Source: a virus. Taken from it: a stretch of 32,431 nucleotides of DNA. Each line of letters opens with the position of its first letter. Position 1 is the stretch's first letter. A program made the position numbers and the translations under genes. Location: the IMG/VR virus record IMGVR_UViG_3300025809_000067, positions 1 to 32,431 of that record. The stretch is one strand, 5' to 3'. The notes beneath the pieces are model-generated. The model had not been told where the DNA came from. It was given only the letters and a program-made list of their open reading frames with translations, and searched no databases. Shown piece after piece: positions 20,910 through 30,096 of this stretch.

Positions 20910-22580
20910 ATGGCAGATTCATTGCTAGATTTTGATTACAATACAATGATAGATAAAGCATTGGGAACGACTAATCAGCCCTTTAAAGGGCTTATTAATG
21001 ACCCTAACTATGAGGACTCTCTAAATATAAATACATTATTAGGTGGAGGTCTTGGTTATGTTAATTCTTTATATAAAGACAAAACACTTGCTGAAAAATT
21101 ACTTGCAACTGCTACTGGGGCTAAAGCAGCGAGAACAAAGGGTATTAATGATGCTGTTACAAACTTATTTAACCAACAAAAATTTAACAAAAACTCTTTA
21201 GATTTAAATAAGTTGCAACAAGATATTATGTTAAATCAACACAAACTTTCTGATGCTCCTATAAAATCAAAAAAACTAGCATACGAAACAGGAGCTGCTG
21301 GAACAACCTTTAGACTAGGAACACTTCGTGAGAAAGCAATTGAAAGTAAATTTAGAGAATTAGAAGAAAGGGGAGATTTAGATTTATTACAACAATATGC
21401 AGTTGACCCAGAAGCATTTGATGCAGACCAAAGAAAATCTGACCCAAGATTTAGAGAGCTTACTAAACTTTCTGTTGCTGAAGAAAATGTAGCAAAAGCA
21501 TTAAATATGAATATTAAAGACCCTACTAAAAATAGTGAGTTTCAAAATAATGCTTTTTTAGATTTAATTAATACTCCTAGTGATGAGGTAGTTGCAACTC
21601 ATAATGCTTCTGAACAAAGCAAACGACTTCAAGATGCTAATTACATACCTAAAGAACAAAAAACTCTATCACAAAAATTAGGTATGTATACAAAACAACA
21701 AAAAGATGGAAGTAACAAAACTTTATCAGAACAAGGAAAACAAACAGGTTTAAACAACTCTCCTTATAGAAGCCGTACATTTGCTCCAGAAGAAGGCTAT
21801 CCTGCTGTTAAAGTAAATGGCAAAGAAATTGGTGGGTATGTAGATTATTATGGAGACAAATACACCCCAGAGCAATGGGACAAACTAGGAAAACAACAAC
21901 AAAAAGCATTAGACCCAAGATTAAATGCAGATAATGTAATGTTAAAAATGAAAGAATTTGAAAAAAATGGTAATGATAGTGGGAAAGCTGCTGCTTATAT
22001 GATGGACACAGTTGCAAGAAGTAATAAAGTTATTAGAAGATTAATGGCTAACCCAGAAGCTGTAAAGGATATGCAAAGTGGTATGGGAAGGTTAATGATA
22101 AACCTTAAAGCAGGTAAGTATGGCTTTCAAACAGATGGTCAAGATGCAGCTAATCTTTTGTCCTTAATTCAAAATAAAGAATTTATTAAACAAATTCAAG
22201 AAATGAGAAATAACAACTCAACTGGTGGTGCTGTAGGTAATGTCTCTGATAGAGAAGTTCAGATGTTTATTAATGCCGCTGCTGCATTACAAAACACTAG
22301 TTCACCTCAAGCCTTATATAAAGAAATGTTACTGCTACACAGAATGGGTGAAGATATGGTAACAAAACAATCAAACAAATACTTAATGAATTTTGGTGAA
22401 GAATATTACAATAATTATGATTTAGGCGGTTCTTTAAAAGATGCTAATGTAGGACATATTTTTCCAGCTACCTTTAAAGAGGCATTACAAAAACAGCGAA
22501 CTGAAACAATGAATATGGATATGGGGTTAGGAAATAATCTGCCTGTTCAAAAGCCATATACAGTTAAAGAAATTTTTTAA
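20910..22580 (+). CDS. Ejection / internal virion protein 3
   Basis: The 556-residue protein is soluble-looking and mostly helical. Near the start it has a hydrophobic Gly-rich patch (NTLLGGGLGYVNSLYKD), followed by long helices rich in Lys, Gln and Asn. At about 436-460 it has the module TGGAVGNVSDREVQMFINAA, the same motif that is repeated three times in the protein at 476-997. This kind of module is, in my memory, common in podophage internal proteins before the last helical domain (LYKEMLLLHRMGEDMVTKQS). No catalytic motif (transglycosylase, peptidase) is visible. Confidence 0.72.
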   Translation: MADSLLDFDYNTMIDKALGTTNQPFKGLINDPNYEDSLNINTLLGGGLGYVNSLYKDKTLAEKLLATATGAKAARTKGINDAVTNLFNQQKFNKNSLDLNKLQQDIMLNQHKLSDAPIKSKKLAYETGAAGTTFRLGTLREKAIESKFRELEERGDLDLLQQYAVDPEAFDADQRKSDPRFRELTKLSVAEENVAKALNMNIKDPTKNSEFQNNAFLDLINTPSDEVVATHNASEQSKRLQDANYIPKEQKTLSQKLGMYTKQQKDGSNKTLSEQGKQTGLNNSPYRSRTFAPEEGYPAVKVNGKEIGGYVDYYGDKYTPEQWDKLGKQQQKALDPRLNADNVMLKMKEFEKNGNDSGKAAAYMMDTVARSNKVIRRLMANPEAVKDMQSGMGRLMINLKAGKYGFQTDGQDAANLLSLIQNKEFIKQIQEMRNNNSTGGAVGNVSDREVQMFINAAAALQNTSSPQALYKEMLLLHRMGEDMVTKQSNKYLMNFGEEYYNNYDLGGSLKDANVGHIFPATFKEALQKQRTETMNMDMGLGNNLPVQKPYTVKEIF

Positions 22581-28043: not shown

Positions 28044-28182
28044 GATTTTCCTTTATGTCATACCAATTAAACGAACAATACCATTTCTTATCACTATCCA
28101 TAAACATAGCATCACGACCACACTTATGGCAAACAAACTTATCTCCATATAAATATACTTCTTGTTTATTAATCTTCGTCAT
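28009..28182 (-). CDS. Cys-rich mini-protein 3, relative of the gene at 27888 (57 aa)
   Basis: I prefer the ATG at 28182, giving MTKINKQEVYLYGDKFVCHK at the start; an in-frame ATG at 28206 would lie deeper in the DUF3310 gene. The peptide has CHKC near 18, KKWYC near 36 and GICKND at the end, matching the Cys spacing of the next gene closely. Four Cys probably bind one zinc ion. It overlaps the DUF3310 gene by 14 bp. Confidence 0.62.
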   Translation of the reverse strand: MTKINKQEVYLYGDKFVCHKCGRDAMFMDSDKKWYCSFNWYDIKENHGICKNDKNTK

Positions 28183-28465
28183 GCAATTCGTCATCAATCC
28201 ATTCATCTTGCTTGGCTTTAACTTCCAAAACCTTTAGTTCTGTTTGATGGACTTTAATCATTTGTTCAAGATACCATATTGCTTTCTTACAGTCATCTAT
28301 CTTGTCAGTTAATTTTTCTGACTTCAATCCCTCTCTACTAATATACTTTAGTGCATTGCCTTTGATGTAGCCATAAAACTCATCTTTGCTCATCTTGGCT
28401 TGCATATATTCTATTGTTTCTATACCCCCTTTCTTGTAATGGTCAGGGTTTATCGTATCACTCAT
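28169..28465 (-). CDS. DUF3310 protein
   Basis: The 98 residues hold the DUF3310 hallmark: INPDHYKKGGIETIEYMQAK (about 5-24), then FYGYIKGNALKYISREGLKS and a helix KIDDCKKAIWYLEQMI. The family is widespread in phages, sometimes described as nucleotide-kinase-associated, with no firm function. This is the first gene after the terminator at 28641-28665, so it needs its own promoter, for which there is a candidate at 28531-28559. An AAGGAG site lies 6 bp before the ATG. Confidence 0.9.
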   Translation of the reverse strand: MSDTINPDHYKKGGIETIEYMQAKMSKDEFYGYIKGNALKYISREGLKSEKLTDKIDDCKKAIWYLEQMIKVHQTELKVLEVKAKQDEWIDDELHDED

Positions 28466-28530: not shown

Positions 28531-28559
28531 ATTAAAATAAAGCCTTGATTAACCAACAA
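28531..28559 (-). promoter_or_regulatory. Leftward promoter candidate for the DUF3310-to-nuclease operon
   Basis: On the minus strand TTGTTG (28559-28554), 17 bp, then TTTAAT (28536-28531). The -10 matches the sigma-70 consensus in five of six places and the -35 in three. It would restart leftward transcription after the terminator at 28641-28665. It overlaps the leader of the pqqA-like gene on the other strand, so the two could interfere with each other. Confidence 0.5.
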
Positions 28560-28570
28560 GGAACTTAATT

Positions 28571-28642
28571 ATGTGGACAAAACCATCAGCTACTGAAATG
28601 AGATTTGGCTTTGAAGTTACAATGTATGTAATGAACAAGTAA
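28571..28642 (+). CDS. pqqA: PqqA-like PQQ precursor peptide
   Basis: The 23-codon frame on the plus strand starts MWTKPSATEMRFG and goes on FEVTMYVMNK. This is the whole PqqA pattern: W2 and P5 near the start, R11, G13, then E15-V-T-x-Y19. In known PqqA peptides PqqE joins that Glu and Tyr by a C-C bond, and the pair is then cut out and turned into the cofactor pyrroloquinoline quinone. Length and residue numbers equal those of Klebsiella PqqA. AAGGAA (28558-28563) lies 7 bp before the ATG. No pqqB, C, D or E gene is in the window, so host enzymes would process it. Both flanking genes are on the other strand. Methylotrophs use PQQ in methanol dehydrogenase, hence the host inference. Confidence 0.92.
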   Translation: MWTKPSATEMRFGFEVTMYVMNK

Positions 28643-28665
28643 AAAAAAGGGGGCGGTTAGCCCCC
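28641..28665 (-). terminator. Strong leftward terminator after the SSB-like gene
   Basis: The stem GGGGGC/GCCCCC (28649-28654 and 28660-28665) has a 5-base loop and, read on the minus strand, is followed by eight T. It ends the transcript that carries the replication and recombination genes. Its T-run overlaps the stop codon of the pqqA-like gene on the other strand. On the plus strand the hairpin lacks a T-run, so it might protect the 3' end of the pqqA message but would be a poor terminator. Confidence 0.88.
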
Positions 28666-28676
28666 AATCCCCCTAG

Positions 28677-28979
28677 TTAAAACGGCACATCTTCTGACAC
28701 TTGGTCAAAACCTTCTTTAGCTTGTGGAGCAGTTGTATTACTACCTCCTTCATCCGTAAAAAATACCCTTGTGTTACCTAATATAGCACCTCTAGTCCCA
28801 GCTTCTCTTTCTTCTGCTGTTACTGATTGAGTTACCATACCATTGTTGTCATATTGGTCTTTCTCATCTAAATTAACAAATGCTGTTAAGTTAAGATAAG
28901 TGCCTTTCTTACCATCAATAAGTTTAGACTTATCAATTTTTGTTACATCAATACTTGCTGAAATTCCTACTGTTGCCAT
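28677..28979 (-). CDS. Single-stranded DNA-binding protein-like
   Basis: The 100 residues look like an OB-fold protein: ATVGISASIDVTKIDKSKLI, then GTYLNLTAFVNLDEKDQYDN and TRGAILGNTRVFFTDE. A flexible part ends in SEDVPF, like the acidic SSB tip (DDDIPF) that binds partner proteins. It follows the exonuclease gene with a TAATG overlap, and with the DUF1071 protein makes a recombination set. An AAGGAG site lies before the ATG. It is shorter than bacterial SSB. Confidence 0.78.
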   Translation of the reverse strand: MATVGISASIDVTKIDKSKLIDGKKGTYLNLTAFVNLDEKDQYDNNGMVTQSVTAEEREAGTRGAILGNTRVFFTDEGGSNTTAPQAKEGFDQVSEDVPF

Positions 28980-29596
28980 TAGTTGTTCTCCTTAATAAAT
29001 TTAACTGAATCCATGACCTCTATTGCAAACTCATGAATATCTCTTTCTAGACGACCTATTAAATCATCATCTCTTTCTACTCTTTTGATAAAGAGTTTAT
29101 AGTCACCAAAATCAGGGTGATAGCAAACAAAATCACACCACTTCCTACCTGTGCAAGCCATCTGCCATTGCATTTGATGAATATATCTTTTTGGGATTAC
29201 TGCGTTTTGCAATATTTCCGTATGCGTTGTTGGTTGGGGACATTTGATTTCTATGAGTCCCTCATCTGATACCATACCATCAGGACTAGCCCCTGACATC
29301 ATAACTGTTGGGTGGTCTACAAAGCCCTCCTCTTTAACATCTACATCTTTAAGAAGTCCTAGCTTTGCTATGTAAGCGTTTCTAGCTTCATCTTCATACT
29401 CAACCCCATGTCTCATAGCCTCATTCATAAATATCTTTACAGGCTTTCCTGTCAGTTGCTCGGTAATGAGTTGCGTTCTGTATTTTCGTTTATACATACT
29501 CTCGCCATTCTTAACCTTAACAATGACATTATCTACATTACTAGCAGTGACCTTACCTACCCTAGCTTGAAACCACTCATCTGTGCGTTGCTCCAT
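28979..29596 (-). CDS. YqaJ / lambda-exonuclease-like recombinase nuclease
   Basis: The enzyme would chew one DNA strand to give tails for annealing. The 205 residues start MEQRTDEWFQARVGKVTASN, have RHGVEYEDEARNAY (about 62-75), and the catalytic set D106 in SGASPDG with E116-I-K118 in LIEIKCP. YIHQMQWQMACTG (about 138-150) is the family's Q-x-x-Q helix. GTTTAAAC ends right before the ATG, where a ribosome site would be, and only a weak AAGG lies further up, so translation may be coupled to the gene before. Confidence 0.93.
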   Translation of the reverse strand: MEQRTDEWFQARVGKVTASNVDNVIVKVKNGESMYKRKYRTQLITEQLTGKPVKIFMNEAMRHGVEYEDEARNAYIAKLGLLKDVDVKEEGFVDHPTVMMSGASPDGMVSDEGLIEIKCPQPTTHTEILQNAVIPKRYIHQMQWQMACTGRKWCDFVCYHPDFGDYKLFIKRVERDDDLIGRLERDIHEFAIEVMDSVKFIKENN

Positions 29597-29598
29597 GT

Positions 29599-30096
29599 TT
29601 AAACAGCCTTTTTAATTGTTTCTATAAATGGCATACATAACTTTCTGTCTGCCTCGTTTAAACCATTAAAGTATTGTCTAGCCGTAGCTACACCTTGCTC
29701 TTTGTATATGTTCTCTATGCGTTCTAAAACATCTCCTTCTGGCAAATCTTCTCCTTGATAGATATACAAACCAATGCCATGTAATGATATAGCTTTTGCT
29801 AAACATCTTTGCATAGCTGTGTTGAGTTGCATAGCATTAGGATTCTTAATGGCTTGATTCTTAAAGTCTATAACAGGTAGTTGAGATGTCATCTCTTTAC
29901 CAAATGCTCTGACTATGCAGAACACCATTATACTGCCATCAGGTAATTTATATGGCTCTCTGTATTCCCATGTTGCTAACTCATCATGTTGCAATAAAGT
30001 ATCTACTGCCCAAGCCCATGATAGATAAGTAAACTTACCTTTCTTCTCTGTATATTTGCTAACATCTATCTTTCTTAACTCTGCGTATTTACTCAT
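29599..30096 (-). CDS. DUF1071 single-strand annealing protein (Sak-like)
   Basis: The 165 residues start SKYAELRKIDVSKYTEKKGK and have FTYLSWAWAVDTLLQHDELA (about 22-41) and the hallmark LNTAMQRCLAKAISLHGIGL followed by YIYQGEDLPE (about 96-125). This is the DUF1071 group of phage annealing proteins, distantly Rad52-like. It works with the exonuclease downstream. It overlaps the 52-residue gene before it by 4 bp. The C-terminal part (GVATARQYFNGLNEADRKLC) is helical. Confidence 0.9.
   Translation of the reverse strand: MSKYAELRKIDVSKYTEKKGKFTYLSWAWAVDTLLQHDELATWEYREPYKLPDGSIMVFCIVRAFGKEMTSQLPVIDFKNQAIKNPNAMQLNTAMQRCLAKAISLHGIGLYIYQGEDLPEGDVLERIENIYKEQGVATARQYFNGLNEADRKLCMPFIETIKKAV

Follow-up and report, generated by a model that had tools for sequence, protein, structure and literature searches.

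A lone pqqA gene, encoding the PQQ precursor peptide, in a Venkman-like phage and in other phages of methylotrophs

Identity and setting of the pqqA frame

Why should a small phage carry a gene for PqqA, the precursor peptide of PQQ, without the enzymes that process it? The question is raised by a frame of 23 codons and a TAA stop at positions 28571-28642 (plus strand) of the window, by which we mean the entire 32,431-base IMG/VR record that was analyzed. Its translation, MWTKPSATEMRFGFEVTMYVMNK, matched PF08042 over the whole profile (1-19 of 19; 43.3 bits, E 3.2e-11, cut-off 21.1) in a profile search, and the NCBIfam equivalog TIGR02107 over its full length (40 bits, E 2.3e-10, cut-off 20). 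Because both curated PqqA models were matched at about twice their cut-offs, chance is excluded. The family residues W2, P5, R11, G13, E15, V16, T17 and Y19 are all found in the peptide, and the Glu-x-x-x-Tyr core, from whose side chains PQQ is built, reads E15-V-T-M-Y19. PHROGs held no family that matched the peptide. At the level of sequence, these results confirm the frame as a real and full PqqA gene.

The window encodes a terminase and a major head protein and may be an incomplete genome. Over its right-hand 5.2 kb the record shares 93.5% identity with Methylophilales phage Venkman, which was propagated on OM43 strain H5P1; the two have identical pqqA coding sequences. The structural genes, together with the nine isolate phage genomes described below that also carry pqqA, identify it as a gene of true phages rather than of contaminating host DNA. 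As a separate observation, the motif VGNVS[DN]xE occurs three times in a 173-aa protein near the packaging genes (476-997) and a single time in a 556-aa protein encoded 20 kb from there (20910-22580).

No match to PqqE, PqqD or PqqB was found in the window record, which thus holds pqqA outside any pqqB-E biosynthetic operon, and the complete Venkman genome lacked all of PqqE, PqqC, PqqD and PqqB. Each of 47 pqqA-bearing phage records contained one pqqA copy. None of the 47 had PqqE, PqqC or PqqD above the cut-off, and PqqB was absent from all 30 records tested for it. In the host control, LSUCC0665, all four proteins were recovered. Radical-SAM fragments on two contigs (G022 and G038) were rejected as PqqE, scoring 27.7 and 22.2 against a cut-off of 381 bits.

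The larger gene-like open reading frames between about 25.8 and 31.9 kb all lie on the minus strand, opposite to pqqA. The divergent neighbor (28169-28465, minus) encodes a DUF3310 protein (PF11753, E 1.5e-18). The convergent neighbor (28677-28979, minus) had no Pfam match, and its homologue in phage ctXG6705 is annotated as a putative ssDNA-binding protein. With a YqaJ-type exonuclease (28979-29596, minus; PF09588, E 3.6e-24) and a Sak single-strand annealing protein (29599-30096, minus; PF06378, E 1.2e-36), this small ssDNA-binding-like gene makes up a leftward recombination operon, whose intrinsic terminator (28649-28665, minus; stem and T8, fold -16 kcal/mol, z -1.5) starts 6 nt beyond the pqqA stop.

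Upstream of pqqA, a Shine-Dalgarno sequence, AAGGA (28558-28562, plus), is placed 8 nt 5′ of the ATG, and an AGGA/GGAG-type ribosome site precedes 141 of 149 viral pqqA copies. A weak CCTTG..CAAGG stem over the ribosome site (28543-28561) was discarded, as it is not conserved in relatives. A putative -10 element, TAAAAT (28533-28538, plus), reads TATAAT in many relatives. Within the window lineage, a -10-like hexamer about 30-40 nt 5′ of the ATG was present in 28 of 29 distinct leaders versus 14.7 in shuffles, the leaders being related rather than independent sequences; host pqqA leaders showed no comparable excess over shuffles. A sigma-70 consensus scan called no promoter and no full sigma-70 match for pqqA, so the evidence for the putative -10 element is the alignment of relatives and the shuffle counts. 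Since pqqA has a putative leader of its own and the opposing operon ends just past its stop, it appears to be a separate transcription unit, convergent with the recombination operon.

These results bear out most of what a first-pass annotation had proposed for this locus: a phage-encoded, orphan frame with the full PqqA pattern that would score against PF08042 and TIGR02107, a well-spaced ribosome site, a strand opposite to its neighbors, and a methylotroph host, for which closeness to Venkman points to OM43.

Conservation and selection in phages and hosts

Relatives of the locus were fetched with the convergent neighbor gene (28677-28979), that is, without using pqqA. Where at least 400 bp of sequence lay past the neighbor gene, which was so at 76 loci, pqqA was sought within 400 bp; 53 of these loci had it at the same spot and invariably on the opposite strand, including relatives with as little as 53% neighbor identity. 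The neighbor-fetched set comprised 58 pqqA copies with 22 nucleotide variants and 10 peptides. E15, T17 and Y19 were invariant in this set, whereas W2, P5 and G13 are uninformative for conservation because the copies were recognized by them. Pooled pN/pS was 0.13 (pS 0.50, pN 0.065), from related sequences with synonymous sites near saturation, indicating that this host-like gene is under purifying selection in phages. The first-pass annotation had named loss of the frame or of E15 and Y19 in related phages as grounds for abandoning its reading, and had suggested a same-locus search and a dN/dS-type comparison; as far as sequence can decide, the reading passed.

The same data bear on whether the peptide or its mRNA serves infection in some other way, by regulating the host genes for pqq or methanol dehydrogenase, by acting as a redox or stress signal, or by giving rise to a PQQ-like product that methanol dehydrogenase does not use. 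Such a role would suit a pqqA that stands alone, convergent with a recombination operon and, in the window lineage, behind its own leader. We regard it as unlikely, since the constraint falls on the amino acids, synonymous sites being variable, the residues needed for PQQ chemistry are the ones retained, and the leader structure is not conserved.

The gene was absent from a 35-kb Venkman-like contig with a 93% identical terminase (G203) and from some more distant relatives. Either pqqA is not essential, or G203 is incomplete or belongs to a phage of another host; in this phage group pqqA is therefore common but dispensable, or host-dependent. A close Venkman-like relative (IMGVR_UViG_3300030390_001059, 35 kb; L336 / L425) has the convergent neighbor gene and no pqqA.

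On the host side, pqqA was present in all 150 sampled Methylophilaceae genomes, at 1-12 copies and mostly several, and at the OM43 loci examined it stood alone, followed by a terminator-like hairpin. Published genomes carry 3-12 pqqA genes versus one set of pqqBCDEFG (PMC4109929), suggesting that extra pqqA dosage is favored in hosts too. Host MAGs (L149, L152, L221, L231 and L239) contain tandem pqqA pairs about 200 bp apart, with peptides ending in CNK/CNR versus MNK.

No position separates phage from host peptides, and four nucleotide coding sequences are common to the viral and host sets, although the exact peptide of the window was not among the sampled host copies. This near identity is what would be expected of passive host DNA, whether a fragment lately acquired from a host, the remnant of an attachment site or contamination of viral contigs by host sequence. 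We give this explanation hardly any credence, as nine isolate genomes carry the gene, it occupies the same site across divergent relatives, and pS of about 0.5 is combined with strong constraint. In addition, among the matches listed, other proteins of six reference phages were matched by 129 of 155 viral loci versus 2 of 120 host loci. Host contamination and an attachment-site origin were rejected on the synteny in relatives, the pN/pS ratio and the phage proteins around the loci.

Distribution of pqqA among phages

When 50,697 phage records were searched with the window peptide by tblastn, 12 matched. Nine are Methylophilales phage isolates (Venkman, P19250A, MEP301, MEP401, MEP402 and four Melnitz strains), so that pqqA was present in 9/9 of the Methylophilales isolate genomes found, representing about five lineages. 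The tenth is the spring-water phage ctXG6705, whose host is not recorded. The remaining two, labeled 'Acinetobacter phage MD-2021a', were rejected as phage pqqA because they consist of bacterial DNA that includes a complete pqq operon; public records under this label, e.g. CAKLQF020000010.1 (L008), look like host contamination.

Host-type, L036-type, Klebsiella-type and Pseudomonas-type PqqA probes returned the same twelve records and nothing further, and a Methylobacterium-type probe returned no match in the 50,697 records. TIGR02107 served as a check on the Klebsiella-type and Pseudomonas-type probes. As several probes led to the same records, phages of other PQQ-making hosts in this collection have no recognizable copy. 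Among the named records, pqqA is thus restricted to phages of methylotrophs, with ctXG6705, of unrecorded host, as the one further carrier; no true phage of another host had it.

The gene has been overlooked in these genomes. Venkman, P19250A, MEP301, MEP401 and MEP402 have no annotation at the pqqA site. The Melnitz strains and ctXG6705 have an overlapping hypothetical protein annotated there, in antisense in the two genomes checked for strand, Melnitz EXVC044M (gp152; L007 2961-3056) and ctXG6705 (L002 2067-2195); these antisense calls are probably gene-calling errors. PQQ is nowhere mentioned in the papers on MEP301, MEP401/402 and Venkman, and the Melnitz paper names it only as a growth-medium vitamin.

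These phages have few proteins in common with Venkman (6 of 56 open reading frames in MEP301, 4 in P19250A, 2 in Melnitz), compared with 21 in ctXG6705, and the surroundings of pqqA differ between them. We consider it reasonably probable that a lone pqqA is near-universal in phages of obligate methylotrophs, in largely unrelated lineages (Venkman/ctXG6705, MEP301, MEP401/402, P19250A and the T4-like Melnitz) and at different genomic places, as a convergent strategy in which supply of a consumable substrate controls C1 metabolism and which annotation has missed.

In IMG/VR, a DNA pattern for GFEVTMY retrieved at least 120 stretches, and among the matches listed all were PqqA-like, with the right length and motif. 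A second pattern was fixed at residues 1-13 only and allowed any residue from position 15 to 19; E15 and Y19 were kept in 119/119 complete copies so retrieved, the 120th being cut by the contig end. This retention bears on a decoy or inhibitor role, in which phage PqqA would occupy PqqD/PqqE and block host PQQ synthesis, e.g. redirecting metabolism or starving competitors. Carrying the whole family profile, the peptide should indeed bind PqqD/PqqE. An inhibitor, however, need not keep both crosslinked residues, yet both were retained in every copy examined; phage and host peptides have no diagnostic difference at any position; and a PQQ block in an obligate methylotroph would presumably cut the phage's own energy supply. 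A decoy, which the first-pass annotation had offered as an alternative, is therefore disfavored and in our judgment very unlikely. That interpretation as a whole is partly supported: the phage-borne, orphan PqqA, its OM43 host and its conservation hold, and the decoy does not.

Copies not of the Methylophilaceae type (L032, L033, L036 and L083) share their contigs with genes for a phage head, portal, terminase or tail, and another such copy (L068) with T4-like replication genes, so the trait may extend beyond phages of Methylophilaceae. A Melnitz-like 72-kb contig (IMGVR_UViG_3300025120_009955; L051/G012) combines pqqA with a full methanol dehydrogenase 92% identical to an OM43 enzyme (features at 34049-35731 and 41887-41943 of that contig); the phage enzyme contains a DEWDYDG stretch typical of XoxF. 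A 356-kb viral contig (IMGVR_UViG_3300023174_000036; L252) also has pqqA, which suggests that very large methylotroph phages carry the gene as well.

Proposed function and relation to known systems

The best-supported reading of phage pqqA from these sequences is substrate supply. We think it likely that the gene is a functional, host-derived auxiliary metabolic gene, with the phage giving the consumable part and the host the enzymes, and we infer its transcription, processing, timing and benefit as follows. Upon infection, host RNA polymerase would transcribe pqqA as a monocistronic unit from a small promoter that belongs to the gene itself, and the resulting peptide of 23 residues would join the host PQQ pathway. 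PqqD would present PqqA to PqqE, which would crosslink E15 to Y19; joining of the Glu and Tyr side chains by PqqE is known to require PqqD (PMC8326336). A peptidase would then excise the crosslinked pair, and PqqB and PqqC would complete PQQ. One PqqA would be destroyed per PQQ, while the enzymes recycle, are stable and persist. PqqA protein has been found at about 20-fold the level of PqqC or PqqE (PMC2294125). As the only component consumed one for one with the product, the peptide would be the part that runs short and needs resupply as host transcription falls. With PQQ synthesis continuing, the PQQ-dependent methanol dehydrogenase from which obligate methylotrophs draw their energy would stay charged while the cell is infected.

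Substrate supply is consistent with multi-copy pqqA in hosts, the absence of the enzymes from phages, the confinement of pqqA, in the named records, to phages of methylotrophs, and the retention of the reactive residues. Against it counts that hosts already hold several pqqA copies, so that any marginal gain from one more is putative.

If phages of OM43 and its relatives, which oxidize methanol in coastal seas and lakes, generally supply PqqA, then a 23-residue gene that escapes standard gene calling would give virus infection a means of tuning how fast one step of the C1 cycle runs. Existing phage-host cultures would allow a clean test of whether a host pathway can be steered by its consumed substrate alone rather than by an enzyme. 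The locus also warns that phage annotations lack metabolic genes of fewer than about 30 codons.

Whether phage pqqA had been described was left in doubt by the first-pass annotation; viral pqqA was in fact reported in 2020 and 2026, so the gene type is already known. PqqA and methanol dehydrogenase were found in VP_266, a T4-like population from Lake Baikal with a predicted Methylophilaceae host (Coutinho 2020; PMC7678222). A 2026 reservoir-sediment study lists viral pqqA, pqqD and pqqE as phosphate-solubilizing auxiliary metabolic genes (PMC13188868). No paper in the open-access literature searched describes how broadly pqqA occurs in methylotroph phages, every isolate genome found being a carrier, and its near-universality and standalone form there appear to be new.

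The present phages share virus-encoded PQQ genes with the reservoir-sediment viruses and differ from them in habitat and interpretation, the orphan, conserved, methylotroph-linked pattern being absent from the passages of that study covered here. As in VP_266, where the gene was proposed to support methanol oxidation, pqqA in the window occurs in a predicted Methylophilaceae phage. Unlike the T4-like VP_266 with its methanol dehydrogenase gene, the window is a small Venkman-like phage, and it and the isolate panel have pqqA without that gene. The window copy resembles bacterial PqqA and the standalone pqqA of Methylophilaceae in length, full motif, E-x3-Y spacing, ribosome site and location apart from pqqBCDE. 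It differs from the latter in being phage-borne, in its distinct synonymous codons and leader, and in abutting the terminator of an opposing operon instead of having its own. The situation resembles that of cyanophages that carry only psbA, the gene of the short-lived D1 protein: in both cases the phage brings just the fast-consumed component of the host's energy machinery. The product of psbA is a full protein, that of pqqA a substrate peptide.
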